From an uncultured Bacteroidota bacterium (GTDB lineage: Bacteria > Bacteroidota > Bacteroidia > Flavobacteriales > Flavobacteriaceae), in NCBI GenBank assembly GCA_902584445.1, contig CACHZY010000005.1:24213-88212 (forward strand): a stretch of 64,000 nucleotides of DNA, given 5' to 3'. The notes beneath the pieces are model-generated. The model saw nothing but the letters and a program-made list of their open reading frames with translations, was not told the origin of the DNA and made no database searches. The translations under genes were made by a program, and so were the position numbers. Positions 3,893 to 47,360 of this stretch are shown here, one piece after another. The stretch's first letter is position 1, and every line of letters starts with the position of its first letter.

Positions 3893-4006
3893 ACTTTTAA
3901 ATTATGATTTAAAGTTTTAGGCTAAATTTAGTAACCATTTACCTAATCAGAATATTAGGGAACAATGGAGGATTTGAATAAAACTTTACATTTAAGAATA
4001 TCATTT

Positions 4007-5278: not shown

Positions 5279-5297
5279 GTAATTTAATTTTTCATTA

Positions 5298-5305
5298 CAA
5301 AGGTA
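5298..5305 (-). promoter_or_regulatory. Candidate -7 element (TACCTTTG) for serS
   Basis: On the minus strand the sequence reads TACCTTTG, a match to the Bacteroidota -7 consensus TAnnTTTG, 19 bases before the serS ATG. No good TTG -33 element is seen at the usual distance, so this is a motif match only. Confidence 0.35.
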
Positions 5306-5332
5306 TGTGAAAGCATTGGATTTCTAATTAAA

Positions 5333-6265
5333 CTAGAGGTATTGTGGGATCAATTTTTGACAATGCTTCTTATCAATATCTAATTGAATCTTAAGCTTTT
5401 CAATAGATTCAAACTTTTTTTCCTCTCTAATTTTTTCTAATATTTCAAGAGTCATTTCGTGGCCATAGAGGTTTCCATTAAAATTAAATAAATGTGTTTC
5501 TATTTGATTATTTTTTGCTGATATCGTTGGTCTAATTCCAATGTTCATCATTCCAAAATAGGTTTGTTTTTTTAGCCTTGTCCTTGCAAGATAGACTCCA
5601 TTTTGAGGTTTGAGCTTATACTTTTCAAATATATTTAAGTTAGCTGTGGGGTAACCAATTTTTCTTCCCAATTCATCCCCTTTTATTATTTTTCCAGATA
5701 AATTAAATGGTCTGCTGAGGAATTTATTAACTAATTTAAAGTCTCCACTTATTATAGCATTTCGAACTTTGGTTGAACTTACCGAAATCGATTTAATATC
5801 TTGGGCAGGAATTTCATCAACCTCAAAATTATAATCTAAACCAAAACTCTTTAGGGTTTGAACCGTGGCCTCTCTATTTCGGCCAAAACGGTGATCATAA
5901 CCAATCATCAGTTTTGATACTTTTAGACTATTTACTAAGATATCTCGTGTAAATTTTATGGCTGACATTCTAGAAAAATCCTTTGTGAAAGGATGAATAA
6001 TCAAAACTTCCACTCCTAATTTTCTGAAAATATTTTTCTTTTCGTTCATGGTATCGATCATCTTAATATTTGAGTCCTTTTGCAAGACCATGCGGGGATG
6101 GGGAAAAAAAGTAAGCAATATCGTTAGTAAATTTTCTTTTTTCCCCTTTGCTACCATATCAGTGATAATTTTCCTATGTCCAATATGGACTCCGTCGAAT
6201 GTTCCAATTGTTACAATTGATTCTCTTGAAGGTTTGTATTCCAATATGTTTTCAAATACTTTCAT
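5333..6265 (-). CDS. ribF: Bifunctional riboflavin kinase / FAD synthetase
   Basis: Converts riboflavin to FMN and then FAD in the cytoplasm. The N-terminal half is the nucleotidyltransferase domain, with GTFDGVHIGHRKII near residue 20 and the conserved SSTKVRNAI near 160. The C-terminal half is the flavokinase domain with GRKIGYPTANL near 190. The 310 residues match the normal bacterial bifunctional form. Its start faces the metalloprotease gene across an 88-base divergent intergenic region that contains a TACTTTTG element on this strand. Confidence 0.96.
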   Translation of the reverse strand: MKVFENILEYKPSRESIVTIGTFDGVHIGHRKIITDMVAKGKKENLLTILLTFFPHPRMVLQKDSNIKMIDTMNEKKNIFRKLGVEVLIIHPFTKDFSRMSAIKFTRDILVNSLKVSKLMIGYDHRFGRNREATVQTLKSFGLDYNFEVDEIPAQDIKSISVSSTKVRNAIISGDFKLVNKFLSRPFNLSGKIIKGDELGRKIGYPTANLNIFEKYKLKPQNGVYLARTRLKKQTYFGMMNIGIRPTISAKNNQIETHLFNFNGNLYGHEMTLEILEKIREEKKFESIEKLKIQLDIDKKHCQKLIPQYL

Positions 6266-6284
6266 CTAAAATTAAGTATCACTT

Positions 6285-6292
6285 CAAAAGTA
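6285..6292 (-). promoter_or_regulatory. Candidate -7 element (TACTTTTG) for ribF
   Basis: Minus-strand TACTTTTG matches TAnnTTTG and ends 19 bases before the ribF ATG, the same distance as at serS. No convincing -33 TTG is visible. Confidence 0.35.
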
Positions 6293-6353
6293 CATTATAA
6301 TTGCTTTAAGTTTTGTGGTCTTTTTTTTTTAATTTAAAGGAAAAATAATTGCA

Positions 6354-7385
6354 TTGGTCATTCGACGAGTAATATTACTCTTTCTGTTCATTATTTTATT
6401 TTTCTTTAACGAGATCCAAGCCCAAGATTATTGGTCTAAAGCTGATAAAGAAATAGTCTTACCTCAAACATTTCAAGCAAGGGAAGATTGGCATTACTTA
6501 TCATTGGATAATGATAAATTAAAAGCTTTATTAATACCTAAAAACATTTCTACCTCCGAGTCTCAGGAAAATAATATATCGATTGAGCTTCCAAATGAAA
6601 AGGGAATTGAAGAAACATTTTCATTAACTTCTGTTGCTGTTCTATCTCCTGAACTAGCCAGACAATTTCCTAAGATTAAAACTTATGTGGGAAGAAGTAA
6701 AAGTAGACCAGATGTATCTGTAAGAATGTCATATACACCAATGGGAATCAATGCTTGGATACGTTTTCCAGACGGTAAAAATAGATTTATTCAACCGATT
6801 GATAAAGATAGAAATTACTTGTCTTATTTGCGATCAGAGAATAATACGATCAGTAGTTTTGAATGTACTACTCCATTGGATCAAAATTCGATTGTAGAAG
6901 AAAAATTAAAACGAAGGGGAAGTAGTCTCAGAACCTCTGATAGCCATCTTAAAATATTCAGGTTAGCCATCTCTACTTCTGGAGGTTATACTTCTTTTTG
7001 GGGAGATGATGATCAAAGTAATGGTAGTAATAAAGAAGATGCTTTTGCTGCAGTAGTTAGTACAATTAATCGAGTTAATGAGATTTTTGAAAATGAATTA
7101 GGAATTCACTTGGAGTTGGTAAATGGTCTGGATTTAATTTATGACGACCCTGATAATGACCCCTACACTGATGATTTTGGTTCTGAGGTTCAAGAAACCC
7201 TTGATGAGGTATTTGGCTCTCAAAACTACGATATTGGGCACTTATTTGCATATTCTACAGCAAGCGGTGGAGGGAATGCTGGTTCAGTAGGTAACGTCTG
7301 CATAGATAATAAAAAAGGGTCAGCTTACAGTTATCATCCCTTTGAGGGATCATTTAATGATCCTTTTTTTGAGCGATCATTTTGA
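6354..7385 (+). CDS. Secreted reprolysin-like metalloprotease, N-terminal part before a frameshift
   Basis: First part of a zinc-dependent secreted protease of the reprolysin/ADAM-like family found in Flavobacteriia. The chosen start is TTG, giving an N-terminal signal peptide (hydrophobic run ILLFLFIILFFF, then QAQD). It continues through the propeptide-like region and the first half of the catalytic domain (SDSHLKIFRLAISTSGGY onward). The frame stops at 7385, a few residues before the zinc motif, which continues in another frame in the next ORF (7342-10230). Read together the two ORFs form one protein of about 1,290 residues. A single-base deletion in the T run at 7364-7370 or at 7380-7383 would restore one frame. 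Either a sequencing error, a true pseudogene or a recoding event is possible. Confidence 0.85.
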   Translation: MVIRRVILLFLFIILFFFNEIQAQDYWSKADKEIVLPQTFQAREDWHYLSLDNDKLKALLIPKNISTSESQENNISIELPNEKGIEETFSLTSVAVLSPELARQFPKIKTYVGRSKSRPDVSVRMSYTPMGINAWIRFPDGKNRFIQPIDKDRNYLSYLRSENNTISSFECTTPLDQNSIVEEKLKRRGSSLRTSDSHLKIFRLAISTSGGYTSFWGDDDQSNGSNKEDAFAAVVSTINRVNEIFENELGIHLELVNGLDLIYDDPDNDPYTDDFGSEVQETLDEVFGSQNYDIGHLFAYSTASGGGNAGSVGNVCIDNKKGSAYSYHPFEGSFNDPFFERSF

Positions 7386-10230
7386 TATCGATTATGTAGC
7401 CCACGAAATGGCTCACCAATTTGGAGCATTTCATACTTTTGGTTATGAAAATGAATTTGAGGGAGTAAGCTCAGAGCCTGGCAGTGGTTCAACTATAATG
7501 GGTTATGCTGGAATTACTGGATCGGACAATGTACAAAGGCATAGTGATCCTTATTTTCATTATCATAGTCTAAAAAATATAAATGATTATGTTCAAAATC
7601 AAACCTGCTATACCACAACATTAAATGAAAATGAACCCCCTACTGTAAATGCTGGTATAGATTATACTATCCCAATAGGTACTGCATATGAATTGAAGGC
7701 AACTGCGAGCGATCCAGATAATCTAAAATTGTATTACTGTTGGGAACAATTGGATAGTGGGGAAGTAGGAACTAATAATTTTGGACCTAATTTTCATTTG
7801 GGTAGTCAGGCTCGTTCGCTACCACCAACTGAAAGCGCTATAAGGACGATTCCAAGGATGGAGTCAGTTTTGGATGGAAAACTGACAGAAACGAATCCTA
7901 CAATTGGAAGTAATTGGGAAACAGTTTCAAATATTGAAAGAACTCTAACATGGGGTGTAACTGTTAGAGATTATTTTCCTGCTTTAGCAAATGGAAAAGG
8001 TAAAACTACTTCTGATGCTAGAATAATAAAAGTGACATCTAAAGCTGGTCCATTTAAAATTTTATCTCAGGCTGAAGAAGGAATTTTTTGGGAAGGGGGC
8101 TCTAGGCAAATCGTTTCTTGGGATGTTTCAAATACTGATCAGAGCCCTATTAACACCAAAAACGTTTCAATTTTAATATCTAAAGACTTAGGACAGACTT
8201 TTAATGAAATTCTAGTTGCCAATACACCAAACGATGGTAATGAAGAAATAACTGTGCCAGCAGATATCAATTCCGATCAAGTGAGAATTAAAATTGTTCC
8301 TGATAATTCTATTTATTTCACTGTAAACACTCAAAATATAGAAATTCAACAGTCGCCATTTACTTTTTTATTTGATAAATATAATCAAGAGATTTGCGAG
8401 GAATCAGAAATTATTTTTAATTATTACTATGAAACTTACCTTGGATTTAATGAAGAAGTAAATCTCGGCATAAGCAACTTACCTGAAGGATTAGAAGCTG
8501 TTTTCTCATCACCTAAATTAACACAAGGCTCGAGTTCGGGAACCTTGAGGCTCTTAGGACTTGAAAATTTATCTAATCAGGATTTAACACTAGAGGTTTT
8601 CGCTCTAGGGAGCACAATTTCAAAAACAGTTGAGTTAGAACTAAGGGCTTTAAACGATAATTTTTCCAATATTGAACTTTTAAGCCCAACTATGGATGAA
8701 GAGGGTATTAGTAGAAATGTTACGTTGACTTGGGAGGTTGAGACTAGTGCTACTTCTTATATTTTAGAGGTAGCGAAAGATGTAAATTTTTCAAATATTA
8801 TTGTTTCTACCTCTACCATTATGAACTCGTATTTTCTTAAAAATTTAGATTTTGCAGAGGAATATTTTTGGCGGGTTAAACCATTAAATATTTGTGGCAC
8901 TGGTGCCTTTTCTGAAACTAGAGCTTTTAATACAACTTTGATTAATTGTAAAAATTATTACCCCTCAAGTCTGCCTAGTCAAATTAGTGATAGTCAAGGG
9001 GTTTTTCCTGGAGTAACAAAAGTCACTATAAATGTTTTTGATCAAGCTTTTATTGAAGATATCAACGTAAAGATATCTATTGAACATGCCTATATTGAAG
9101 ATATTTCAATCTATCTAATTGCACCTAACCAAACCAAAATTAAATTATCACAGAATTTAGGAGAAAATTTGGGTAATTACATAAATACTGTTTTTGATCA
9201 GGAGTCCTCAAATCCAATTGTATTTGCACTGCCCCCATTTATAGGTTCATTTAGTCCAATTGAAGATTTATCAGATCTTTATGGCAATGAAATGAAGGGG
9301 GAATGGATACTTCAAATAGAGGATAATTTTGAAGGAACATCAGGAAATTTAACTGACGCTGAATTGCAAATATGCTACAGTGGAGAAATTATTCTAGATA
9401 CTGATAATGATTCAATAGCAGACTTTAAGGATAATTGCCCAACTATAGCTAATAATGATCAATCTGATATTGATAGAGATGGGTTGGGAGACTTATGTGA
9501 CTTGAATACCTTTAATAATTTTTTAATTACAAAATCAAATCCAACTTGTGCATTAAAGAACAATGGAATAATAAGTATAAATGGTAAGGCTCATTTTAGC
9601 TACAAAGCAGATATTAAGGGTCCCAATGGGTATTTTTCTCAAAAGAGATTTAATCACTTATATGATGCTACAATAAAAAATCTTTCTCCAGGGAATTATT
9701 CAATTTGTATAACTTCTGATGAGGAAATCAATTTTGAAAGTTGCTTCAAGACCTTACTTGAAAGTCCGGATCCGCTTAACGTTTTAACCGAGTTAAATTA
9801 TCAAAATCAATCCCTTACAATTGATCTTTCAGGAGCTATAAACTATGAAATATTACTTAATAATAGCCGTTATAAATTAAATTCAGGAAGACACCAACTT
9901 TATTTAAAGGAGGGATTAAATAGGTTAGAGATTAGAACTAACCAAGAATGTCATGGAAAAGTGGAAGAGAATATTTATCTATCAGATGTATCAACTATTT
10001 ATCCAAATCCAGCTTTTGATTCGGTTAACGTCTTATTAGGAGGACAAGCCAATGACTTTATAATCTCTATTTTCAGCATTCAAGGGGATTTAATAGAGCA
10101 ATTTAAGGAGCAACATCTACCTAGTAACCGAACCTTTACTATTCCTTTAGATTATTATCCCAAAGGGGTTTATCTCATCAATGTTATTTGTGGAGATAAA
10201 ATTGAGAATATCAAATTACTTAAGAGATGA
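7342..10230 (+). CDS. Secreted reprolysin-like metalloprotease, C-terminal part with P-domain and T9SS sorting signal
   Basis: Continuation of the preceding ORF after the frameshift; the TTG at 7342 is only the formal ORF start. The zinc motif HEMAHQFGAFH (HExxHxxGxxH; His21, Glu22, His25, His31 of this ORF) is intact. It is followed by a long region of Ig/FN3-like domains, including WRVKPLNICGTGAFSE. Next comes a proprotein-convertase P-domain-like region (about 545-680; GEWILQIEDNFEGTSGNL) and a thrombospondin-3-type calcium repeat (DTDNDSIADFKDNCP, about 690-720). After that is a roughly 150-residue SprB-like module, and finally a T9SS type A sorting domain (STIYPNPAFDSVNV to KGVYLINVICG). 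The protein should be exported across the outer membrane. Its stop overlaps the next gene's start as ATGA, as in the PUL giant gene. Confidence 0.88.
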   Translation: MRDHLMILFLSDHFDIDYVAHEMAHQFGAFHTFGYENEFEGVSSEPGSGSTIMGYAGITGSDNVQRHSDPYFHYHSLKNINDYVQNQTCYTTTLNENEPPTVNAGIDYTIPIGTAYELKATASDPDNLKLYYCWEQLDSGEVGTNNFGPNFHLGSQARSLPPTESAIRTIPRMESVLDGKLTETNPTIGSNWETVSNIERTLTWGVTVRDYFPALANGKGKTTSDARIIKVTSKAGPFKILSQAEEGIFWEGGSRQIVSWDVSNTDQSPINTKNVSILISKDLGQTFNEILVANTPNDGNEEITVPADINSDQVRIKIVPDNSIYFTVNTQNIEIQQSPFTFLFDKYNQEICEESEIIFNYYYETYLGFNEEVNLGISNLPEGLEAVFSSPKLTQGSSSGTLRLLGLENLSNQDLTLEVFALGSTISKTVELELRALNDNFSNIELLSPTMDEEGISRNVTLTWEVETSATSYILEVAKDVNFSNIIVSTSTIMNSYFLKNLDFAEEYFWRVKPLNICGTGAFSETRAFNTTLINCKNYYPSSLPSQISDSQGVFPGVTKVTINVFDQAFIEDINVKISIEHAYIEDISIYLIAPNQTKIKLSQNLGENLGNYINTVFDQESSNPIVFALPPFIGSFSPIEDLSDLYGNEMKGEWILQIEDNFEGTSGNLTDAELQICYSGEIILDTDNDSIADFKDNCPTIANNDQSDIDRDGLGDLCDLNTFNNFLITKSNPTCALKNNGIISINGKAHFSYKADIKGPNGYFSQKRFNHLYDATIKNLSPGNYSICITSDEEINFESCFKTLLESPDPLNVLTELNYQNQSLTIDLSGAINYEILLNNSRYKLNSGRHQLYLKEGLNRLEIRTNQECHGKVEENIYLSDVSTIYPNPAFDSVNVLLGGQANDFIISIFSIQGDLIEQFKEQHLPSNRTFTIPLDYYPKGVYLINVICGDKIENIKLLKR
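7361..7385 (+). other. Frameshift site in the metalloprotease gene (T7 and T4 runs)
   Basis: The N-terminal frame reads into a stop at 7383-7385, while the catalytic motif continues in the frame one base later. The junction contains seven Ts (7364-7370) and four Ts (7380-7383). Removing one T from either run joins the frames to give ...DPF...DIDYVAHEMAHQFG. Just upstream is the near-palindrome GGATCATTTAATGATCC (7347-7363). Confidence 0.8.
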
Positions 10231-10910
10231 AATTAGAGAATTTATTTTTGATATTAACTCTTTTTTTAGCCATTGCCTGTGAAAAAGAAGTAATCATAAC
10301 CCCAGATCCACCCCTTTTAATTGGACCTGAAAATAACAATAGTTGTACCTCAGAGACAATTATTACATCTCAAAAAAGTCAAGTAAACTTTCTTTGGCAA
10401 GCTGCATTGAATGCAGATGAATATGAATTAGTAATTAGAGATATTCAAACAAATTTAGACATTCAATTAAATACGTTTCGGACTTTTAGCCCTGTGGTTT
10501 TAGACCGTGGTAAACAGTATTCGTGGTGGGTAATCTCGAAGTACAATGCGGATCAAACCTTTTCAAAAAGCAGAATTTGGACTTTTTATCTAGAGGGTCC
10601 CCAAAAGTCAAGTCATTTTCCATTTCCTGCAAATCTTTTAAATCCAAAATCTAATGAACAAATAAGTTTGAATGATGGAAAATATATTTTTATATGGGAA
10701 TCAACTGACCTTGATGAAGACATAATTGAATATGACTTCTATTTAGGCTCTGATCCTGATGAGTTAACTCTTTTGGCAGAAAGATTATCATTAAACTCGA
10801 TTGAGTTATCGCTTAATCCCAATCAATTCTATTATTGGAAAGTTATAACTAGAGATTCAGAGGGTAATGTTTCTAGTTCGCCTGTTGAAGGTTTTAAAAC
10901 TTCTTTTTAA
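10227..10910 (+). CDS. Lipoprotein with two FN3-like domains, coupled to the upstream T9SS protease
   Basis: A 227-residue predicted lipoprotein with lipobox LAIAC (Cys18). Two fibronectin-III-like beta domains follow: the first around 40-125 (VNFLWQAALNADEYEL ... YSWWVISKYN), the second around 140-227 (YIFIWESTDLDEDIIEYDF ... YYWKVITRDSEGNVSSS). The start codon overlaps the protease stop (ATGA), so translation is probably coupled. It is homologous along its whole length to the lipoprotein at 24637-25371, which is coupled in the same way to another T9SS giant, and both have a Cys shortly after the lipobox region (NNNSC and NNKVC). No named function is known to me. Context suggests a cell-surface or periplasmic partner of the co-translated exported protein. 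Its stop overlaps the pth stop by 4 bases. Confidence 0.82.
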   Translation: MKLENLFLILTLFLAIACEKEVIITPDPPLLIGPENNNSCTSETIITSQKSQVNFLWQAALNADEYELVIRDIQTNLDIQLNTFRTFSPVVLDRGKQYSWWVISKYNADQTFSKSRIWTFYLEGPQKSSHFPFPANLLNPKSNEQISLNDGKYIFIWESTDLDEDIIEYDFYLGSDPDELTLLAERLSLNSIELSLNPNQFYYWKVITRDSEGNVSSSPVEGFKTSF

Positions 10911-16608: not shown

Positions 16609-19236
16609 TTATTGTTGGGTTAAAATCATTTTTTTAATGGCGTAATAGGCAGGTTTCGGTTTTAATTTAGAATCAAAAATGAATCGATGTTTATTATGAT
16701 GAGGACCTGGTTTACCATCCACCATACCCCAAGTGTTAAAAGTAACAACACCTTGATCTTTTTTTGAAAGTAAGACACCTATTATATTTGCATAAGCTTT
16801 AGCCTGCCTCTGAAGTGCTTCATTTGAATTATTTCCATCCTCAATTCGGTAATCCATTTCAGTTACATGGAAATCTAAATCGTTTTTATGTGCCCAATCG
16901 ATTAAATCGCCTAAAAATTTTAATTGTGAACTATCATTCGCTAAAGGTTGGTCGCTCCTAAGGTGTGCTTGCCATCCTAGACCATTTATTCTCAGTCCTT
17001 TTGATCTTAGGTAAAGAATTGTTTTCTTTACTTGCCTCCACATTTTGGGCTCCATTCCCCCATGCTGGTTGAAAACCAAACTGATGTTGGGTGCATAACG
17101 ATTGGCAATTTCAAAAGCCTTAATTATATATGAAGGATAACCATTTTCATCTCTCCCAATTTGTACCCACGGGTTTTCCCATTTATCCATTCCTGGTTTT
17201 TCTTTAAACCAATTTCCTTCTCTTGTTATCGTCTCATTTACTACGTCCATCCACTTTACACTCGGCTCTTGATTCATTTTTTTACACAGGGCTGTGAAAT
17301 ATTCAGTCATATTTTTTTCGAGTTCTTTTGGGGTTCTATTATCTGCTTTTGCCCACCTCGAAGCTTGTGGGCTTACCGGACCGTGTATCCTTAATTTAAT
17401 TTGGTATTTATCTGCAAAACTTAGATAATCATCTATTAAGGTCCAGTCCCATACTCCAGGGGAAGGATGAACTCTAACTTGTTTTGCGCAATTCTCGGGA
17501 GTTGAGTAAGTAAATTCTCCTAAGAATAGATCTGATACTTTTGTATTTAGCTGATCATGATTTAAAGTTGCCCCAATGACTACATTATTGTTATCGTAAT
17601 TATTTTGATCTAATAATTTTTGAATACCAATTCCAAATTTACTTTTGGGTTTATTGATAAGGGTTTTCTTTGGAGGACTTAAAAAAGCCAATCCATCTGC
17701 TTTAATTTTCTTGTAAATACTTTCATATCCATCGACTTGTATCAAATTTTCTGTTTCTAAGGGATCTTTAGAATAATCAAATAATTCCTCTTGAATGATA
17801 TCTTTTTCACTTATTTCTTTCCCAATTTTTGATTTATTGATCCAAAGGGTATACCTGTAATCTGATGATCTAAAGCTGTAGCCCATATTTTGATTTCTTA
17901 GGTACTGGCTAACTGCATATTCTTTAACGGACTGAACTGAGCCATCCATTAATGGCAAGAGTGATTTGCCATCCAATCCATTATGCAAAGGAATATTGGC
18001 TAGTTCACAAAGTGTTGGAAAAATATCGACAAATTCAGTTGGGGAGTAAACCTTTCTAGGTGTTTGATCTTGAGGGGCATATATAATTAGAGGGGATCTA
18101 GTGGCCTGCTCAAAATTGGAATGCTTATTCCACAAACGGTGATCACCCAAATGATAACCGTGGTCTCCCCAAATAACTATAATGGTGTTGTCCATTAATC
18201 CTTTTGCATTTAATTTCTTTAAGATTTTTCCTATTTGAAAATCGATAAAAGTTACACATGCATAATAACCGTGGATTAATTCTCTTTCTAAATTATCATC
18301 TAGTTGTAATTGTCTATTTTCATCTAATTTATAGTCCCAATCAGGTGCTGAAAATGAGCGCATTTCACCGGAATTGTGATACGATAATCTACCTGTATTC
18401 TTTGCCCTTTCTCTAAACTCAGCTAATGGCATACGTTCCCTCTTATAAAGATCCCAATATTGTTTTGGGGCGGAAAACGGAAGATGAGGTTTTCTAAAAC
18501 CAACTGCCAGGAAAAATGGAGATTTACTGTCTTTGGTCAAATCATCAATCATATCAACTGCTTTAGCTGCAATAACTCCATCTGCATATGCCTGATCAGG
18601 TTTATCACTAAATGAGACGGGTGGCTTATATTTATTTTTTAGTGATTCGCCTAGATTGCCATTTCTGCTTATGCCATCTTTTTTTATGATAGAATTAATG
18701 TTAGCCTTTATTTTTTCATTTTGATAGTCTCCAAGAGTAGGGGGTCCGAAGGGTTTGGGGTAAGATAGCTGGTGAGGCTTAACAAATGGAATACTCCATG
18801 AAGGGGCATCGCTTTTTTTATCTACTCCCCTGGGGTCGAATATTTTTCCAACTCCAGCAGTAATAAATCCCATGGCTTTGAAATGTTGTGGAAGGGTGAC
18901 AATATTGGGCTTCTTATCTCTCATTTTGGTATTTAAATCGTAAACCTTGGTATAATCTGGACGTTTTCCTGTCAAAAGACTTATCCTAGACGGACTACAA
19001 ATCGCTTGTTGTGTGTGATTATTTAAAAATAAGGTTGACTTACGCGCTAAGAAATCAAGATTAGGTGTTATAGCCATCGCATCACCATAGCTTCTTATAG
19101 TTGGTTTTAAATCATCAACTGCGATGAAAACAATATTATAGGAAGTATTGTTTTGAGCTTTACTAAATGTCAGAAACAATAAGTAAATTACAACAAATGT
19201 ATTTCTGTATTTTTTCCTTGATGAAATTAGAACCAA
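16609..19236 (-). CDS. Sulfatase-GH10 xylanase fusion protein
   Basis: 875 residues in two enzymatic parts. Residues about 30-520 are an S1_7-like sulfatase, with AVDDLKPTIRSYG, the formylglycine site AICSPSRISLLTG (Cys80) and WGDHGYHLGDHRLWNKHS. Residues about 535-875 are a GH10-like barrel, with acid/base Glu668 in WMDVVNETI and nucleophile Glu793 in FHVTEMDYR. The GH10 part lacks the usual WH substrate motif seen in the stand-alone GH10 at 37306, so it is a divergent member. The N-terminus has a hydrophobic signal sequence, and the ORF start is TTG. The fusion would join desulfation and backbone cleavage on one polypeptide. A terminator separates it from the susCD operon, so it likely has its own promoter and is followed by the second sulfatase. 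Confidence 0.9.
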   Translation of the reverse strand: MVLISSRKKYRNTFVVIYLLFLTFSKAQNNTSYNIVFIAVDDLKPTIRSYGDAMAITPNLDFLARKSTLFLNNHTQQAICSPSRISLLTGKRPDYTKVYDLNTKMRDKKPNIVTLPQHFKAMGFITAGVGKIFDPRGVDKKSDAPSWSIPFVKPHQLSYPKPFGPPTLGDYQNEKIKANINSIIKKDGISRNGNLGESLKNKYKPPVSFSDKPDQAYADGVIAAKAVDMIDDLTKDSKSPFFLAVGFRKPHLPFSAPKQYWDLYKRERMPLAEFRERAKNTGRLSYHNSGEMRSFSAPDWDYKLDENRQLQLDDNLERELIHGYYACVTFIDFQIGKILKKLNAKGLMDNTIIVIWGDHGYHLGDHRLWNKHSNFEQATRSPLIIYAPQDQTPRKVYSPTEFVDIFPTLCELANIPLHNGLDGKSLLPLMDGSVQSVKEYAVSQYLRNQNMGYSFRSSDYRYTLWINKSKIGKEISEKDIIQEELFDYSKDPLETENLIQVDGYESIYKKIKADGLAFLSPPKKTLINKPKSKFGIGIQKLLDQNNYDNNNVVIGATLNHDQLNTKVSDLFLGEFTYSTPENCAKQVRVHPSPGVWDWTLIDDYLSFADKYQIKLRIHGPVSPQASRWAKADNRTPKELEKNMTEYFTALCKKMNQEPSVKWMDVVNETITREGNWFKEKPGMDKWENPWVQIGRDENGYPSYIIKAFEIANRYAPNISLVFNQHGGMEPKMWRQVKKTILYLRSKGLRINGLGWQAHLRSDQPLANDSSQLKFLGDLIDWAHKNDLDFHVTEMDYRIEDGNNSNEALQRQAKAYANIIGVLLSKKDQGVVTFNTWGMVDGKPGPHHNKHRFIFDSKLKPKPAYYAIKKMILTQQ

Positions 19237-24636: not shown

Positions 24637-25371
24637 TTAATCAACCTTAAATGAAAAGACTATGGAGTAAGAGCTATTGTTGTTAGAATCAGTTGCTTTA
24701 ACTCTCCAATAGTAATTATTTCCTGAACTAACTTGTACAGACTTAGATTTAGCTGATAGGTTTTTGTTTGAAGAAATAGGCTCTTGTAATCCATCAGTTG
24801 TATCAATATAAAGGCCATAAGTAAGGGATGAATTTTCTGGGTGAGATCCCTCCCAGCTTAGCTCAACTGAAGTAGTGCTTGATGGGAATACATGTCCAGA
24901 AGAAGGAGATATAAGAGTTGATGGATAAGGGGGATAGTTACTTATTCCATTCCCTGATAAATAGAATTTCCAAGTAGAAGATTCAGCAGTCTTGGATGTG
25001 CCATTCCTTTTTGACGTAACCTTCCATGAGTATGGTGTACCATTGCTTAGTGTAACCGCTTTGTTTGTAGACGTTATGTTTGTTTGATTGATTACTTGAT
25101 TAGAATTTAAATTAGTAATTCTAAGATCATAACTATCTGTATTATTTCCTGCAGTCCATTGAAAGTTTACACTACTTTGAGAATTACTTACAGATGTTCC
25201 TTCCTCACAGACTTTGTTGTTCGTAGGACTTGTTAGCATTGCCACAGAGGGAGGATCAACTGTTTGAACGGGAGGGGTGATTACATCATCACTACCACCG
25301 TCACCTCCACCTCCACAAGAAATTATGAAAAGGGATGCAAACGCAAAATATTTGAAAAACACCTTTTTCAT
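24637..25371 (-). CDS. Lipoprotein with two FN3-like domains, coupled to the T9SS giant protein
   Basis: A 244-residue lipoprotein with lipobox FIISC (Cys19) followed by a Gly/Asp-rich linker. Two FN3-like domains follow: about 55-140 (VNFQWTAGNNTDSYDLRI ... YSWKVTSKRNG) and about 155-244 (VELSWEGSHPENSSLTYGLY ... YYWRVKATDSNNNSS). A Cys in NNKVC follows the linker. It is homologous along its full length to the lipoprotein at 10227. Its ATG overlaps the stop of the 1,657-residue gene (ATGA), so the two are probably made together. It may act as a surface glycan-binding protein or as an anchor or escort for the T9SS-exported partner. The second idea is favoured because the paralogue partners a protease, which needs no glycan binding. 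Confidence 0.82.
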   Translation of the reverse strand: MKKVFFKYFAFASLFIISCGGGGDGGSDDVITPPVQTVDPPSVAMLTSPTNNKVCEEGTSVSNSQSSVNFQWTAGNNTDSYDLRITNLNSNQVINQTNITSTNKAVTLSNGTPYSWKVTSKRNGTSKTAESSTWKFYLSGNGISNYPPYPSTLISPSSGHVFPSSTTSVELSWEGSHPENSSLTYGLYIDTTDGLQEPISSNKNLSAKSKSVQVSSGNNYYWRVKATDSNNNSSYSIVFSFKVD

Positions 25372-28300
25372 TCTCTAACTATTTTAACTGTTTTATCAAC
25401 TGTTTTACCGCTTAATTGAATCAGGTAAATCCCTTTTGAAAATTCTTCTAAATTGATTTGAACCTTTCTGCTAGATTGAATTTCGTTACAACTCGTTTTA
25501 AGGATATTACCATCTCCATCAATTACTCTAATATCTACAGTACTGTCTTTTCCATGAATATATAGGTTTACATTATCCTTTGTTGGATTGGGATAGAACT
25601 CTACTTCTTCACTTATAAATACTTCCTCTGTGTATGATCCTTGGCAAGATTTATCAGTCCTAACCATTAGAAAGTTTACACCTTTTTTGAGATCAATTTT
25701 AGGATTTGAATGGTCAAAATCTTTTTCAATACCATTGTGAACGATAGTATATTTGTCTGAGCCACTTAGATCAAACGAAATAGACCTATTTGCATTATTA
25801 ACTCTCGAGGAAGCGGATAGGGGAGCTGGCTCCATGATGTTAATATCAAAACACTGATTATAACCACTCTTATCCTCAACAGTGAAACAAAGGTTGTACT
25901 GACCAGTATTTAAATTAGTTATTGATTTAGAATATCCACTTGATGAATTTAAGTTATGAGTATCGTTCCCATTAATTGTAAGGGTGTAGTTTAAATTTTT
26001 GTCTTTGGCAGATACATCTATTGAACCATCGGATGAACCTCGACAACTTAAATTTTCAATTGAAATAGAAAAATTATCATTAGGAAGAGAGAATATTTTA
26101 TTACCGTTTACATCATTGGAATTTGAGTATGGATCATTTGGATTGGCATCATTTTGATTAATTACTCCGTCTTTGTCAGAATCATAAATTAGCTCTACAA
26201 CATCATAATTAATATCATTTGCTGAACCTTGATAACCACTTCTCATTTGAACAATCTCAAAATAACCGTCCCCATCTAAATCAACCGGTATTTTGAATCC
26301 TTTGAACCATCCCGACGGATCAATAAACCCAGACGAATTCTTATGATTTTCTGGAAACACAACCTTTGTTGGAATAAATTTTTTTCCATTATTTATAAAA
26401 ATAAAATAGTTGTAATCTCTACTTGACATTTCATCAGCTCCAGTAGAATTGAAGTACCAGCCATTTTGGGGGACTATATCCACATCTCCATCATTATCGA
26501 GATCGACTACGTGGATCCCATTAGCATGGTTATATGACAGGTCATAATTAAAATTATCGGAATCCATGACTCCATTATGATTATTACTTAAATCTATATT
26601 GAAATCTTTATATGAGGACCAACCTATCCATTTGCTTGTAATATCTGCTCCATCATGGTCAAAAACTCTTATGTGACCCTGTTTATAGGTATAATTTTCC
26701 ATGAATAATAAAATATATTCATATTCATCATCTTCATCCAAATTTTCTACAAATACGCACCAGTCATCAGCAATTACATAGTCCTGATCAATTCCTTCAA
26801 AAATATTAACAGTATTATATGAATTAAAATCTATTTGATCATTAATATTAAAATTCAATATTTCAAGAGATAAAAATTGGTGTGCCTCTTCATGTAAATC
26901 ATATGAAGATTGATAACCGTGATTTTCCCAATATTCGTCACCTGAAAATCCAATATGGTTTCCATGTTTATACTTTTTTCTAAATAGTGGTAAATATAGT
27001 TTACCTCCTTTCTCATAGACCAAATTAGAGTCAAAGGAGTTAGGATATTTTAGAAATTCCTCCCTGGTAAAAGCAAAATTCAAACTGAAGACTTTTCCCT
27101 CCTTTGAATCATTTATATCATAATACCTGATTATATGCGCTTCCCTTTTGTTATTTATCGAAGTCATATTTTCTCTTGTATTGTAAGCACTTGTTATAAC
27201 TTCATCAACTCCATCTCTGTCAATATCAAAAGCCGTTGAATTATATCTATTCAAAGGACACTTTGTGAACTCCCCATATTGAAATGTATCATCAATTTCA
27301 TATTCTTTGAAGCCATTACCTGTATTGATAAATAATTTATCGTGCGTGTTAAAAGGACAACCATCAATATAAAAATCTGGCTGATACCCATCTCTTCCAT
27401 GATAATTTTGAGTATGATGAAAAATGTCTACCAACCCATCACCATTAAAATCTGAAACACTTCTATGAATTTGAGCAGCATCTCCTTTAACAAAAATTGA
27501 ATAATCTTCATCATACTCAAAAGATATGATTCCATTATTATTTTTTTGAATTAAAAGAGTAGCAAATGAACCAACTTCAGGATCACTTCCAACTGGTATA
27601 ACAAGATCAATTAGCCCGTCTCCATTCCAATCAGAGCTATAATTCATATATCTGTTAAGAAAAATCTGTTTGTCTTTTGTAAAACCAGATTTTTGAATTG
27701 CAAGATCAATCAGCCCTTGCATATTTTCAATTGTATTTTTGTGAACCTTACTTACTTTAATTTCATCTAATGTCCTGGTTTGATCATTTCCTTCATTACC
27801 CCCTGATTCATTACCCTCATTTACAGTTACAGTCAAGGTGATATTTTTAGAAAAGGCTTCATAATTATCATCTTCCGCTTGATTAAGTGTTATTTGGGTA
27901 GTTCCTGTTCCAACCAAAGTAACAGTATTTCCAGATACAGTAGCTACACTTAAATTGGAAGAACTGTATGTAATTAAACCACTGCTTCTGGAGCTTGCAT
28001 TCATATTAAATTGTGAGTCATTTAAATTTTTACTAATGTTTTCAAAACCAATTAATGACGCTGCAGCGCTATGCTTACTATTATTTCCTGATGTTACAGT
28101 CAAGGTTATATTCTTAGAAAAGGCTTCATAATTATCATCTTCCGCTTGATTAAGTGTTATTTGGGTAGTTCCTGTTCCAACTAAAGTAACAGTATTTCCA
28201 GATACAGATGCTACATTTGGGTTTAAGGAGGTGTATGTTATCGAACCAGTGCTATTGGAACTTGCATTAATATTAAAATCAGGGTCATCAATATTTTTGT

Positions 28301-30341
28301 TAATGTTTTCAAATCCAATTAATGATTCAGCAGCACTTTGTTTGCCATAGCTTACTGGATACTCATAAGCCCCGATATCAGGATTGACTCTAACACTACT
28401 ATTTATATCGTAGAGGGGAATATTATTGTTTTGAACCCCGTTATCAACTAGATAACTACTTTGTAGTAAATCAAAATCAAATGCAGCAGAATTTTTAAAT
28501 AAACTCTCTTTTTCAGATCTTTTATCTACATAAAAACCATTTGGGAAAAATGATATTCCTGTATTGGAAACCTCTCCAAAAGCCAAAACATTATTTGATC
28601 CTGTAACAGCATTTGGATTATTCTGAGTATTTATACTGAAAATTTGAAATGCATTATCACTGGCTTGTTTTGCCCAGCTTACATTATTAAAAACTTTCAC
28701 ATTATATGAACTATGGATCGTTATACCAGAAGTACCCTGACGACCATGATTAAGTGCATCTTTCCAGTCTACTCCATAAGTTGTATTTACATTTGTGGGG
28801 ATTTCACCATTTTCAAAAATGGTATTGTTAGCAACAATAGAATTATTGGTTTTATGTACGACAAGACCATTAAGCCCATTGCCATAGGATACATTATTAG
28901 CAAAGTAAAAAGTTCCTTTGTATTGACCATTAGGATTTTGGTCATTAGCTCCCGATCCATTGCTATTATTTCGAGTTATGTAACAACCTGATCCGTCAAT
29001 GATATAGTCTTGAACATCACACCCGTATTTATCACTTTTTGGAGAATTAGCAGTTACTCCATTACAGGTGCCATTGTTCATATATGTCTTATTGAAATAT
29101 GGGATTTTATTAATGTTATCATAAGTCCTATTATGAGTAATACGCATTTTAATTGTATAGGTCTTATCATCTAGATGTTTAGATTGCGCAATAACTATTG
29201 CACTTTCCGCATTGAAGGACCACCAAGTTGTATTGTACACCTGATTATGAGCAATTACTACATAATCACCGTTATTTACCCTAATTCCCGAATTGGGACA
29301 ATTATAAACTTTATTATGATGTAAAATAATATGGTGTCCACTCCAAATAGCAATACCTCTCCCAGTAAATTTTTTCTGGGGCTGTACATTTGGATTACTT
29401 GCAACTAGATTCACAAAATTAGTTCTGTTAGCAATCGCTTGACTATAAGTAATATTTGCATTAGGCCCCTCAATTTCAAAACCTGAAATTTCTAGATAGC
29501 TTGTTTCAGTACCTGAATTACCTCCAATAAAACCGCCCATACCATCAAATTTTATTTTAGGTTGCTCTCCAATATAATTTCTTATAACCAATGGGTTGTA
29601 AATATCTGGCGCGGTAGCAGCATTATTGTATGCCAATGACAAGTTAACCACTTGGTTATTATTTGTCCCCGATCCATAATTACTATTGTAATAAGTTCCT
29701 GAGCGGACATAGATTACATCTCCCTTTTGCCAAGAGTTTACTGCTTGCTGAATAGTATTGAATGGACTCGCCAAGCTACCATTTCCACCTCCTCCAGCGG
29801 TTGATGATACGTATAGATTAGACGTAGACTTATTTTCAAGGGTTAACGCATCAATATAATAAGTACCAGAACTTGCAAAAATTAATTTAATTTTTCCAGA
29901 GGTACTCGCTGTAGTTGGAATAAATTTGAAAGAATAATATGACCACTCATTTGATCTTATTGTTTGAGTCTGAGGGGTTTCTTCAGCAGCATTTCCCCAA
30001 CCATCTTTTATTGTAACACTAATAGAATTTCCTTTTTTAGACTTGGCATAAAAGGAAATATTTACTTCTTGCCCTATTTGTTTATTAAAATTTGAAGCAT
30101 CATAGTTAATTAAGGTGTGCTCTCCTCCGGAAATCACTTTTAATGATCCTGACTGTTCGAAAAAATCACTGTCTGAATTAGTAAAGTCTAAATTCTCAGG
30201 TGCTGCTTTCCATTTGCCATGAACATTAGATTCGAAACTCCCAATTCCTCCAGGCGTTAACTGACTATAAAGTGTCTGATTTATTAAACAAATAATTAAA
30301 ATAAAAAAAAGAAAGCCACTATTTATGATTGATTTCAACAT
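25368..30341 (-). CDS. Giant T9SS-exported protein: CBM-like, beta-helix, tandem repeats, FG-GAP, SprB-like module, sorting domain
   Basis: 1,657 residues with a signal peptide ending near residue 26. Order of parts as read: a CBM4/9-like beta-sandwich (about 30-175, WSYYSFKFIPTTASTSGKIK); a right-handed beta-helix with many Asn ladders (about 178-655); two 89-residue bacterial Ig-like repeats (about 660-840); FG-GAP/VCBS-type calcium repeats (DWNGDGLIDLV, DFNGDGLVDIF, DLDNDGDVDIV, about 870-1400); a calcium motif DSDKDGVINQNDANP; a SprB-like module (SCRGSSDGSIDVSA); and a T9SS type A domain (VEFYPNPTKDNVNLYIHG to KGIYLIQLSG). The beta-helix could be a lyase or esterase fold, but I see no catalytic signature. 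It lies in the PUL between GH43 and susC and is coupled to the next lipoprotein gene. Confidence 0.85.
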   Translation of the reverse strand: MLKSIINSGFLFFILIICLINQTLYSQLTPGGIGSFESNVHGKWKAAPENLDFTNSDSDFFEQSGSLKVISGGEHTLINYDASNFNKQIGQEVNISFYAKSKKGNSISVTIKDGWGNAAEETPQTQTIRSNEWSYYSFKFIPTTASTSGKIKLIFASSGTYYIDALTLENKSTSNLYVSSTAGGGGNGSLASPFNTIQQAVNSWQKGDVIYVRSGTYYNSNYGSGTNNNQVVNLSLAYNNAATAPDIYNPLVIRNYIGEQPKIKFDGMGGFIGGNSGTETSYLEISGFEIEGPNANITYSQAIANRTNFVNLVASNPNVQPQKKFTGRGIAIWSGHHIILHHNKVYNCPNSGIRVNNGDYVVIAHNQVYNTTWWSFNAESAIVIAQSKHLDDKTYTIKMRITHNRTYDNINKIPYFNKTYMNNGTCNGVTANSPKSDKYGCDVQDYIIDGSGCYITRNNSNGSGANDQNPNGQYKGTFYFANNVSYGNGLNGLVVHKTNNSIVANNTIFENGEIPTNVNTTYGVDWKDALNHGRQGTSGITIHSSYNVKVFNNVSWAKQASDNAFQIFSINTQNNPNAVTGSNNVLAFGEVSNTGISFFPNGFYVDKRSEKESLFKNSAAFDFDLLQSSYLVDNGVQNNNIPLYDINSSVRVNPDIGAYEYPVSYGKQSAAESLIGFENINKNIDDPDFNINASSNSTGSITYTSLNPNVASVSGNTVTLVGTGTTQITLNQAEDDNYEAFSKNITLTVTSGNNSKHSAAASLIGFENISKNLNDSQFNMNASSRSSGLITYSSSNLSVATVSGNTVTLVGTGTTQITLNQAEDDNYEAFSKNITLTVTVNEGNESGGNEGNDQTRTLDEIKVSKVHKNTIENMQGLIDLAIQKSGFTKDKQIFLNRYMNYSSDWNGDGLIDLVIPVGSDPEVGSFATLLIQKNNNGIISFEYDEDYSIFVKGDAAQIHRSVSDFNGDGLVDIFHHTQNYHGRDGYQPDFYIDGCPFNTHDKLFINTGNGFKEYEIDDTFQYGEFTKCPLNRYNSTAFDIDRDGVDEVITSAYNTRENMTSINNKREAHIIRYYDINDSKEGKVFSLNFAFTREEFLKYPNSFDSNLVYEKGGKLYLPLFRKKYKHGNHIGFSGDEYWENHGYQSSYDLHEEAHQFLSLEILNFNINDQIDFNSYNTVNIFEGIDQDYVIADDWCVFVENLDEDDEYEYILLFMENYTYKQGHIRVFDHDGADITSKWIGWSSYKDFNIDLSNNHNGVMDSDNFNYDLSYNHANGIHVVDLDNDGDVDIVPQNGWYFNSTGADEMSSRDYNYFIFINNGKKFIPTKVVFPENHKNSSGFIDPSGWFKGFKIPVDLDGDGYFEIVQMRSGYQGSANDINYDVVELIYDSDKDGVINQNDANPNDPYSNSNDVNGNKIFSLPNDNFSISIENLSCRGSSDGSIDVSAKDKNLNYTLTINGNDTHNLNSSSGYSKSITNLNTGQYNLCFTVEDKSGYNQCFDINIMEPAPLSASSRVNNANRSISFDLSGSDKYTIVHNGIEKDFDHSNPKIDLKKGVNFLMVRTDKSCQGSYTEEVFISEEVEFYPNPTKDNVNLYIHGKDSTVDIRVIDGDGNILKTSCNEIQSSRKVQINLEEFSKGIYLIQLSGKTVDKTVKIVRE
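27827..28360 (-). repeat. Tandem 267-base repeat inside the giant T9SS gene
   Basis: Two direct units, 27827-28093 and 28094-28360 (89 residues each), encode Ig-like domains with FENI.KN...N and VSGNTVTLVGTGTTQITLNQ. The halves encoding the second motif are almost identical in DNA, with only about five differences over roughly 120 bases. The other halves have diverged clearly. Confidence 0.85.
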
Positions 30342-40228: not shown

Positions 40229-40852
40229 ATGTTAAAAAATCTTTACAAACATTCAATATTAATAATATCAGTATTTCTATTAGCAATCTCCTGTGATAAA
40301 GGAGAGCCAGCAGTTGTTCACGAACATGAAGTATTCACAAGAGTTGTTCTCGAGGTCAAAAAAGACGGTGAAACAAACTTTAAAAAATATACTTTTGAAG
40401 TTGAAGGCCATGATGACCATGGACACGATGACCATGGAGATGATGACCACGGAGATGATGATCATGGAGATGATGACCATGGAGATGAACACACTGAGGT
40501 TGAGCTTGACACAAATTCAACTTATCACGTTAGTATTTTTTTCTACAATGATTCTGATCCAGATAATATCGAAGACGTTACTCTGGAAATAATTGAAGAA
40601 GCTGATGTACATCAGGTTTTTTATGAAATGACAGAAATTCCAGGATTTTCAATTGCAGCTGCATCTGATGACACCAAAGACAGTAACGGAAATCCACTTT
40701 TTTTAAAAACATCTTGGACTACAGCTTCAGAAACATCTGGTGATGTTAAGGCTTATTTAATACATGAGGCAACCTCTAAAACTGGAAGTACTAGGGCTGA
40801 CTTTGGAGGAGCAACAGATGTAGAGATAGAATTTGAAGTTCACATAGAATAA
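40229..40852 (+). CDS. Lipoprotein with His/Asp-rich repeat, partner of the next TonB receptor
   Basis: 207 residues with lipobox AISC (Cys22). The family is one often found directly before TonB-dependent receptors in Flavobacteriia and is labelled in databases as type 1 periplasmic binding fold superfamily. Typical parts are LEIIEEADVHQVFYEM, DTKDSNGNPLFLKTSW and GGATDVEIEFEV. Unlike usual members it carries an inserted His/Asp repeat (DDHGD units, about residues 61-88), a likely divalent-metal-binding loop. Its stop is followed without any gap by the ATG of the receptor, so the two are tightly coupled. Zinc or copper as ligand is inference from the histidines. Confidence 0.8.
   Translation: MLKNLYKHSILIISVFLLAISCDKGEPAVVHEHEVFTRVVLEVKKDGETNFKKYTFEVEGHDDHGHDDHGDDDHGDDDHGDDDHGDEHTEVELDTNSTYHVSIFFYNDSDPDNIEDVTLEIIEEADVHQVFYEMTEIPGFSIAAASDDTKDSNGNPLFLKTSWTTASETSGDVKAYLIHEATSKTGSTRADFGGATDVEIEFEVHIE
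40409..40492 (+). repeat. 15-base repeat encoding DDHGD units
   Basis: Imperfect 15-base units (GATGACCATGGAGAT type) repeated about five times in frame, encoding His/Asp/Gly pentapeptides. Length changes by slippage would keep the frame. The ORFs in other frames over this region are shadows of it. Confidence 0.85.
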
Positions 40853-43333
40853 ATGCATCATTTTATTGGAAAGATTATCTTTAATTTTTTCTTCGGGCCC
40901 AAAAAATGTAAATGCTCATCTTGTTCAAAGTTAACTAAATCAGTAGCAGGTATTTCTTTATTTGCTACTGGTTTACTTTTTTCTCAAGATTGTAATTTAA
41001 CATTAAAAGGCAAAGTTGTCGATTTACATGATAATACCCCTTTGGAAGGAGCTTTGATTAGCTTCGTTGGGATGAATGAAAATGTCCTATCCAATGCCAG
41101 CGGAGAATTTTTAATAAAAAATCAATGTGAAGGAAAGCTTAGTTTAAAAATTTCACACGTAAGCTGTGAAGACTACCTGACGGAATTCGATTTAAAAAAA
41201 TCCAGTTCCAAAAAATTTTTCATGGAACATCATATTGAATCTCTTGAAGAGATAATTGTTTCAGAAAATAAATTAAAAGACCTATCTACTACTGCAAATT
41301 CATACTCACTAAGTCAACTTGAGAAAGATAGGTATAGCAGTGGAAATTTAGCTACAGCATTAGGCTCTATAAGTGGAGTAAGCAACCTTAGTACAGGAAA
41401 CAGTGTTGCAAAGCCAGTAATTCATGGTATGTATGGAAGTAGAGTAGGAATTGTTTACGACGGAGTTGTTCTAGAAAATCAGCAGTGGGGTTTAGATCAT
41501 GCTCCTAATGTTGACCTAAATGCATTTGATAATATTCGTTTAATAAAAGGAGCGGGTCTTCTAAAGTATACAGGTGACACCCCTGGAGGTGTTATAGTTT
41601 TAGAGTCTTCGACTCCTAAAATATCTGATTCATTATATGGAAAAACTATTATTAATGGTATGTCAAATGGTCGGGGATATAATCTTATAAGCTCATGGAT
41701 TCGGTCTTTTAACAGTGGAATTTTTCTCAAAGCACAAGGTACCTTAAAAAAGAATGGGGACTATAGTACTCCAAATTATATCTTGTCAAACACTGGCAAT
41801 AATGAAGAGAATTTCAGTGTAACGATTGGTAGAAATAAAATTTTAAAAAAATTAAAAATTAATTTTACTTTTTATAGCCAGGAAATAGGAATATTAAGAA
41901 GTTCTCATATTGGGAATGTTGGTGACCTTTTAAGAGCTATACAGTCTAATGAGCCATTTGTGATTAATCCCTTTAGTTATGAGATTAATTTTCCTAAGCA
42001 ATTCAATAAGCATTATACCTCGAGTATTGAATATTCAGTAAGAAATAATTCTAATGGAAAATGGATTACAAAATATAATTGGCAAAAAAACAATAGGAAG
42101 GAATATGATATTAGAAGAGGATCAGACAAATATGATCCAGCTCTTGATCTTACATTAGATACCCATAACTTAGTTTCAAGTTACCAGTGGAATAAATCAA
42201 ATATTTCCTATGATTTAGGATTATTCTCTCAATTTCAAGACAACTATTCAAACCCTGATACTGGAATAAAAAGATTAATTCCTGATTATGTTAAAGTAAG
42301 ACTTGGATCCTTTTTCACCACATCATATTCCATTTTTAATAATCTAGATTTTAATTTTGGCTTTCGTTTTGAACACATAAATAACCTAGTTCAAAAATAT
42401 TATCGTTTTAGCCGATGGAATAATGAAAATTATGAAGTTGATTTAGGGCCTTATGTAATTAAGGAAACCTTGTCTCAAAAATTAGTTAAAAGAAGATTAA
42501 TTTTTAATAATCCTTCATTTAATTTTGGAATTAAAAGTAAGATTATTCCATCTCATGAAATAAGTTTTAACTTTTTTTATACGCAAAGAGCTCCAGATAT
42601 AGCCGAAATGTTTAGTGATGGGCTGCATCATGCAATAGCATCAATTGAGTACGGAAATCCATTTTTGAAATCTGAGAGAACAAATAAATTTGTGATTAAT
42701 TTTGAAAAAAATGAAGGAGATTTCCAATACAATTTTAATCCTTATTTAACTAAGGGTAAAAATTATATTGTAATTGAACCTGCAGGAGTAGAGCAAACCA
42801 TTAGGGGGGCATTCCCTGTTTGGGAGTATAGATCAATTAGCTCTTCATTAAAAGGGTTTGATATTGACCTATCATATAAATTTAACAAGAACATTACATA
42901 TAAAAATAACACATCTTGGATAGAGGGAGTTGATGAAAATACCAAAACACCGATTGTAAATATTCCACCACTAATCACCAATAGTCAGTTACAGTTTTCA
43001 ATTTCTAAATGGAAATCTTTTTTTGGTTCTATTATCAGTAAATATGTTTTTAATCAAAATCAATTCCCTGATAATAATTTTTATACAACTATAATAGAGA
43101 ATGGAAGTAAAGTAGAGAAGTTAGTAGATATTAGCACACCTCCTAATGGGTATCATGATTTAGGAATTGATCTAAATTGGGGACCTTATAAACTTTTCTC
43201 AAATAAAATAAGCTTTTCTCTTACTTTTGATAATATTCTAAATGCAAATTATAGAAATTATCTTAACAGAATGAGGTTTTACAATGACGAGCTTGGAAGA
43301 AACATTATGATCCAAATAAAGATTAATCACTGA
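40853..43333 (+). CDS. TonB-dependent receptor, probable metal/chelate uptake
   Basis: 826-residue outer-membrane receptor. The N-terminus is unusual: before the export segment (VAGISLFATGLLFSQ) lies a cysteine cluster KKCKCSSCSK. Next is a carboxypeptidase-regulatory-like domain (LKGKVVDLHDNTPLEGALISF), then the plug (SLEEIIVSENKLKDL as TonB-box region, VIHGMYGSRVGIVYDGVVLENQQWG) and the barrel, ending GRNIMIQIKINH. The plug motif resembles zinc/haem-type receptors such as ZnuD-like proteins, and HHAIASIEYGNPFLKSE is in the same class. The ATG directly abuts the stop of the His-rich lipoprotein. Substrate inferred, not proven. Confidence 0.9.
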   Translation: MHHFIGKIIFNFFFGPKKCKCSSCSKLTKSVAGISLFATGLLFSQDCNLTLKGKVVDLHDNTPLEGALISFVGMNENVLSNASGEFLIKNQCEGKLSLKISHVSCEDYLTEFDLKKSSSKKFFMEHHIESLEEIIVSENKLKDLSTTANSYSLSQLEKDRYSSGNLATALGSISGVSNLSTGNSVAKPVIHGMYGSRVGIVYDGVVLENQQWGLDHAPNVDLNAFDNIRLIKGAGLLKYTGDTPGGVIVLESSTPKISDSLYGKTIINGMSNGRGYNLISSWIRSFNSGIFLKAQGTLKKNGDYSTPNYILSNTGNNEENFSVTIGRNKILKKLKINFTFYSQEIGILRSSHIGNVGDLLRAIQSNEPFVINPFSYEINFPKQFNKHYTSSIEYSVRNNSNGKWITKYNWQKNNRKEYDIRRGSDKYDPALDLTLDTHNLVSSYQWNKSNISYDLGLFSQFQDNYSNPDTGIKRLIPDYVKVRLGSFFTTSYSIFNNLDFNFGFRFEHINNLVQKYYRFSRWNNENYEVDLGPYVIKETLSQKLVKRRLIFNNPSFNFGIKSKIIPSHEISFNFFYTQRAPDIAEMFSDGLHHAIASIEYGNPFLKSERTNKFVINFEKNEGDFQYNFNPYLTKGKNYIVIEPAGVEQTIRGAFPVWEYRSISSSLKGFDIDLSYKFNKNITYKNNTSWIEGVDENTKTPIVNIPPLITNSQLQFSISKWKSFFGSIISKYVFNQNQFPDNNFYTTIIENGSKVEKLVDISTPPNGYHDLGIDLNWGPYKLFSNKISFSLTFDNILNANYRNYLNRMRFYNDELGRNIMIQIKINH

Positions 43334-47341: not shown

Positions 47342-47360
47342 GATAGGTTTGTGAGGGGAT

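Follow-up and report, generated by a model that had tools for sequence, protein, structure and literature searches.

A lipoprotein paired with the C-terminal module of diverse T9SS cargo, probably a dedicated surface anchor

In a contig of an uncultured member of the Flavobacteriaceae, two large T9SS cargo proteins with different N-termini are each followed by a gene for the same kind of small lipoprotein, the start of which overlaps the stop of the cargo gene. What is constant in such pairs, and what could one lipoprotein do for cargo of such different kinds? The window analysed here, by which we mean the whole stretch of 64,000 nucleotides that holds both pairs, has the following features.

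6354 to 7385, plus strand: N-terminal part of the metalloprotease of P0004, in another frame
7342 to 10230, plus strand: P0004, T9SS type-A cargo; C-terminal portion of a metalloprotease (M12B, P-domain), followed by module and CTD
9526 to 9981, plus strand: C-terminal module of P0004
9997 to 10227, plus strand: type-A CTD of P0004 (Por_Secre_tail)
10227 to 10230, plus strand: ATGA stop-start overlap of P0004 and P0001, exactly 4 bases
10227 to 10910, plus strand: P0001, paralogous FN3-pair lipoprotein, 227 aa; lipobox Cys18, lone Cys40
24637 to 25371, minus strand: P0002, FN3-pair lipoprotein, 244 aa; lipobox Cys19, invariant lone Cys55
24919 to 24981, minus strand: inter-domain linker of P0002, residues 131-151, the most conserved stretch
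25368 to 25371, minus strand: ATGA stop-start overlap of P0003 and P0002, exactly 4 bases
25368 to 30341, minus strand: P0003, T9SS type-A cargo, 1657 aa; Big_2 and FG-GAP repeats, then module and CTD
25371 to 25595, minus strand: type-A CTD of P0003 (Por_Secre_tail, TIGR04183)
25602 to 26075, minus strand: C-terminal module of P0003, residues about 1423-1580; SprB-like and Ig-like beta-sandwich, with Cys1433, 1485, 1497 and 1566 and a CQG motif

Two pairs in one window

The original prediction located both lipoproteins correctly, leaving unstated that the second pair (P0002 and its cargo at 25368-30341) lies on the minus strand. It held that the two are homologous from end to end, which BLASTP bears out (32% over 235 columns, E 9e-29), and the features it had listed, a lipobox Cys, a second Cys, two FN3-like halves, a W-x-FYL linker and YYW-V--DS, are all present. 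The 4-base overlap with the stop of a T9SS cargo gene is exact in both pairs.

The cargo C-termini are also homologous (25% over 314 aa, E 1e-30) and match Por_Secre_tail and TIGR04183 above the curated cut-offs (E 5e-11 and 6e-9 for P0003, 2e-9 and 8e-10 for P0004). As had been claimed, the N-termini are unrelated: P0003 has Big_2/FG-GAP repeats (its beta-helix part is the reading of the original prediction) and P0004 an M12B reprolysin domain with a P-domain. One point to correct is that a frameshift in the assembly divides the metalloprotease between 6354-7385 and 7342-10230; in the same-genus genomes G006 and G007 it is a single frame of about 1298 aa. The frameshift could be an assembly error or mark a young pseudogene.

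The P0003/P0002 pair lies within a PUL that encodes SusC/D, sulfatases, GH10 and GH43. One ORF of this PUL (16609-19236, minus strand) combines sulfatase and GH10 xylanase domains in one protein; with GH43, GH10, two further sulfatases and SusC/D, the content is perhaps for sulfated xylan. Elsewhere in the window, an Asp/His-rich lipoprotein (40229-40852, plus strand), for which no Pfam match was found, directly precedes a TonB-dependent receptor-like protein (40853-43333, plus strand); they are perhaps a metal-uptake pair. An ORF resembling ribosomal protein S16, with a long acidic tail of EEPA type (47361-48203, minus strand), and a RimM-like ORF (46817-47599, minus strand) overlap in different frames.

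Pairing across genomes and joint inheritance

All four lipoproteins of the metagenome-assembled genome (MAG) lie downstream of its four modules, each adjacent. Among 60 relatives, 66 of 75 lipoprotein matches follow a module, and five of the nine others are weak matches to FN3 only. With the lipoprotein alone as query, a scan of 84,980 GTDB species genomes returned 80 loci, one of them without upstream sequence and one (L103) masked upstream. In the 78 testable cases, which belong to Flavobacteriaceae and Sphingobacteriaceae, the upstream gene carries the module every time; carriers include Zobellia, Maribacter, Tenacibaculum, Polaribacter, Muricauda, Hyunsoonleella, Mucilaginibacter and others. 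In a sample of the phylum, full-length relatives occur only in the family among the matches listed, with FN3-domain matches elsewhere; the Sphingobacteriaceae carriers appear in the GTDB scan. SprA is present in nine of ten carriers tested (the same-genus G006 and eight others) and was not found in the 69%-complete MAG.

A sample of 61 Flavobacteriaceae genomes has modules in 29 and the lipoprotein in 25, and all 25 of the latter also have a module. The lipoprotein gene is directly 3' of a module gene in 53 of 58 cases. The other five comprise one pair in flipped order (L123), two genes at contig ends, one chimeric remnant with pieces of both and one truncated gene. The flipped pair, in Flavicella sediminum (G023), is still adjacent (lipoprotein 3060-3734, module cargo 3765-6395).

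Modules and lipoproteins are few per genome, yet nearly every lipoprotein adjoins a module, so that the adjacency is far beyond chance. The original prediction had suggested that one class of T9SS cargo has the lipoprotein as its dedicated partner, with homologues expected beside cargo of the same C-terminal module, and both the GTDB loci and the family sample support this. The dependence is one-way: a lipoprotein predicts a module, and 25 of the 78 modules in the 61 genomes, about a third, have no detected lipoprotein neighbour. Two of these 25 do adjoin an FN3 lipoprotein, too diverged for the profile to detect, that has the same Cys and a gene overlap of 4 bases. The module may therefore work without a lipoprotein in cis.

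The N-termini of 76 cargo proteins from the 80 GTDB loci fall into 18 clusters. Representative enzymes are alpha-amylase, GH5 with CBM6/35, porphyranase, and M12B, M4 and S8 peptidases; representative non-enzyme domains are LRR, VPS10/BNR propellers, FG-GAP/NHL/TIG, beta-helix, ricin lectin and LamG. The pairing of lipoprotein and module is independent of the cargo N-terminus. The earlier proposal that the constant part is the lipoprotein plus the cargo C-terminus holds across these clusters, with a refinement: besides an ordinary type-A CTD, the constant C-terminal part includes the two-domain module that precedes it.

The two genes overlap by 4 bases or by 1 in 69% of 118 pairs and are 20 bases or less apart in 94%, and we infer that the purpose of the overlap is translational coupling. 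Lipoprotein and module distances between genomes are correlated (r 0.83; 43 pairs, 15 multi-copy genomes). Shuffling partners within genomes gave a mean of 0.32 and a maximum of 0.72, and none of 5000 shuffles reached 0.83. The correlation proves joint inheritance of lipoprotein and module, not binding, and the same correlation would arise from co-duplication alone. In a tandem (L009, G000:C19, 4681-6600 and 8263-10182), the DNA for cargo C-terminus and lipoprotein is 99.9% identical and the N-termini are unrelated, one with BspA-like repeats and one LamG-like by our reading. The two copies have identical lipoproteins and the same last 200 cargo residues, and the repeat reaches just past the lipoprotein stop; the cargo 3' end and the lipoprotein thus behave as a cassette. 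G006 and G007 have a matching tandem of hits.

Conserved features of lipoprotein and module

The lipoprotein consists of a signal peptide, a lipobox, a short G/S- and D/E-rich tether and two FN3-like domains with a conserved linker. The AlphaFold model of P0002 (68 relatives) has two beta-sandwiches at a mean pLDDT of 91.8, and its best PDB matches by Foldseek are mostly tandem FN3 domains. Pfam fn3 matches 50 of the 68 relatives and neither window copy, and no curated full-length Pfam or NCBIfam model covers the protein. Mean column entropy is 1.49 in the linker (residues 131-157), against 2.17 and 2.12 in the FN3 domains. The linker consensus is S-x-x-W-x-F-Y-N/L-A-G...N-Y-A-P-F-P-A, or also S-x-x-W-x-F-Y-x-x-G...P-F/Y-P-A, and this conservation suggests a binding surface.

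The lipobox Cys19 column holds Cys in 121 of 121 lipoproteins; 106 fit the strict lipobox pattern and the remaining 15 have a hydrophobic stretch and then Cys. We infer placement in the outer rather than the inner membrane. At least two acidic residues occur at +3 to +10, after mostly G/S, in 76% of 106 scored lipoproteins. This acidic tether loosely resembles the surface lipoprotein export signal (LES) of Bacteroidota, which is acidic, just after the +1 Cys and of SDDFE or SDDDD type, although the position here is looser than published (PMC5080379). Cys55 is likewise invariant (121/121), and in 113 of the 121 it is the sole mature Cys besides the acylated one.

Some family members are larger. 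The lipoprotein at L133 4133-5968 repeats its first FN3 unit and reaches 611 aa; most repeats have an extra C-terminal Cys, and by eye its cysteine number stays odd. Lipoproteins of about 400 aa (L132 4425-5627, L135 1343-2539 and L068 6771 onwards) have an extra C-terminal domain past the FN3 pair, possibly carbohydrate-binding.

In the model of the cargo C-terminus (pLDDT 91.8), two beta-sandwiches, one SprB-like and one Ig-like, precede the CTD. The first half of the module gives weak PF13573 matches in 5 of 38 members. It resembles the SprB repeat (PF13573) of T9SS adhesins, but it occurs as a single copy fused to a second, Ig-like domain and a type A CTD, with cysteines that are conserved and a CQG/CEG motif. 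The module has no Pfam or NCBIfam model that covers it, and a sequence search of solved structures returned mostly generic FN3 and T9SS CTD matches. Both parts, lipoprotein and module, are without a curated family name, and a search of open-access papers found no description of the lipoprotein or its pairing.

Cys1433, Cys1566 and Gly1568 are unchanged in all 120 paired modules, and the seven modules that lack Cys1485 are also those that lack Cys1497, the pattern expected of a disulfide. Modules without a lipoprotein also keep Cys1433 and Cys1566, so there is no cysteine signature for a lipoprotein-binding site. The invariant Cys55 invites the idea of an intermolecular disulfide between lipoprotein and module as a general rule. 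We reject it because of this retention and the joint loss of Cys1485 and Cys1497; the module cysteines look internally paired. The glycine of the CQG motif is lost in 4 of 18 modules without a lipoprotein and in none of the 120 paired ones (Fisher p 2e-4, uncorrected for relatedness), a hint from sequence comparison that this motif may face the lipoprotein partner.

Proposed role and alternatives

It seems moderately likely to us that the lipoprotein, at the outer surface, binds the module and so retains cargo that would otherwise be released or linked to A-LPS. The cargo C-terminal part (module and type-A CTD) and the lipoprotein, both of them extracytoplasmic, would be produced together via translational coupling. 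The CTD would carry the cargo out by the T9SS (SprA/PorV), where it would be processed like other type-A cargo, and the lipoprotein would separately reach the outer membrane, probably its outer face. The FN3 pair, probably making contact through the conserved linker, could then bind the module, which CTD removal would have left at the C-terminal end of the mature cargo. Bound cargo, whether hydrolase, protease, lectin-like protein or beta-propeller, would be held at the surface with neither release nor reliance on A-LPS. Surface retention appears the most likely outcome because the cargo would exit by SprA/PorV, the module would stay after CTD removal, the lipoprotein is predicted to be a co-made envelope protein and the partner is constant whatever the enzyme. 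The lipoprotein is probably a dedicated surface anchor of the secreted protein.

Strict pairing and gene overlap would suit a chaperone equally well. A lipoprotein facing the periplasm could bind the folded module, present the cargo to the SprA translocon and leave on export, and the loose LES match also favours such an escort. We nevertheless find it unlikely, because type-A CTDs suffice to export an unrelated protein (PMC12618676) and about a third of the modules have no lipoprotein neighbour; moreover, the lipoprotein is associated with the module, whereas an escort would be expected to work close to the CTD. The position of the module directly before the CTD could instead point to an adaptor of the attachment complex, one that recruits module cargo to PorU/PorQ/PorZ or shields it from them and in this way sets whether the cargo is linked to A-LPS or released, without itself serving as the final anchor; how PorU selects between attaching and releasing cargo is given as an open question (PMC10202324). 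This is more doubtful still, given that the two-FN3 fold is unlike PorV, PorQ or the PorU protease and that, among the matches listed, full-length relatives occur in only a subset of Bacteroidota.

The location of P0003/P0002 in a PUL, together with a weak match of one of the 68 lipoprotein members to SusE, would fit a protein that binds polysaccharide like SusE or an SGBP and works beside the enzyme without contact. But the family also stands beside metalloproteases, subtilases, LRR and FG-GAP/NHL proteins, and the lipoprotein tracks the module, not the enzyme, which makes this role very unlikely. The gene might also be a hitch-hiker with no functional link, spreading by copying along with the cargo 3' end: the copied unit in C19 ends where this would predict, and co-copying alone gives correlated distances. 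We give this hardly any weight, however, because the lipoproteins are intact, with their features fully conserved across two orders, essentially no orphans occur, and both the gene overlap and, despite the order flip, the adjacency are kept. Least credible is an immunity or inhibitor protein against harmful cargo (toxin or protease), as suggested by the downstream immunity genes that accompany polymorphic toxins near T9SS substrates (PMC7073777). Such proteins vary with the toxic domain, whereas here the lipoprotein is constant and the cargo N-terminal domain changes completely; we rejected this role because the cargo N-terminus varies freely.

A surface anchor of this kind would stand apart from systems already described. 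Sus-type lipoproteins (SusD/E/F, SGBPs) are outer-membrane proteins found in PULs, as here, but they follow SusC/D and bind glycans, whereas members of this family come after T9SS cargo with many different functions. Some Sus-type surface lipoproteins have Ig-type folds. Among the known surface routes, type A cargo is linked to A-LPS or released and type B cargo uses PorP/SprF carriers (PMC10202324, PMC9143113, PMC12618676, PMC10994853); none of them uses a lipoprotein encoded alongside the cargo. SprF/PorP (SprB-SprF, PG1035-PorP-PorE) is likewise a dedicated T9SS cargo partner, often from an adjacent gene, that fixes cargo at the surface (PMC9143113, PMC12618676). These partners are 14-stranded FadL-type barrels and take type B CTDs (TIGR04131), whereas our lipoprotein has two FN3-like beta-sandwiches and its cargo a type A CTD, the constant cargo part including the module before it. 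On both counts, barrel and type B CTD, the lipoprotein falls outside SprF/PorP; by analogy, it may still work as an SprF-kind cargo anchor. PorU/PorV/PorQ/PorZ acts, as the proposed anchor would, on exported type A CTD cargo and decides between surface and medium (PMC10202324), but does so by a covalent sortase reaction and as one general machinery, whereas here a lipoprotein is encoded with each cargo.

In many marine and soil Bacteroidota, a gene for module-class cargo is usually followed by the lipoprotein gene. We tentatively propose, at somewhat less than an even chance, a third way of fixing T9SS cargo at the surface, in which the cognate lipoprotein would capture module cargo, possibly locked by its lone Cys, and the cassette of module-CTD and lipoprotein would confer display on whatever protein acquires it. 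How T9SS type A effectors are divided between release and surface attachment is an unresolved matter according to published work (PMC10202324). For one class, a concrete and testable answer would be a cassette that is widespread, independent of the cargo and equipped with a lipoprotein of its own. Among degraders of algal polysaccharides, keeping enzymes at the cell determines which organism obtains the sugar. Annotators gain two definable families, the lipoprotein and the module, and the cassette is a possible surface-display tag.
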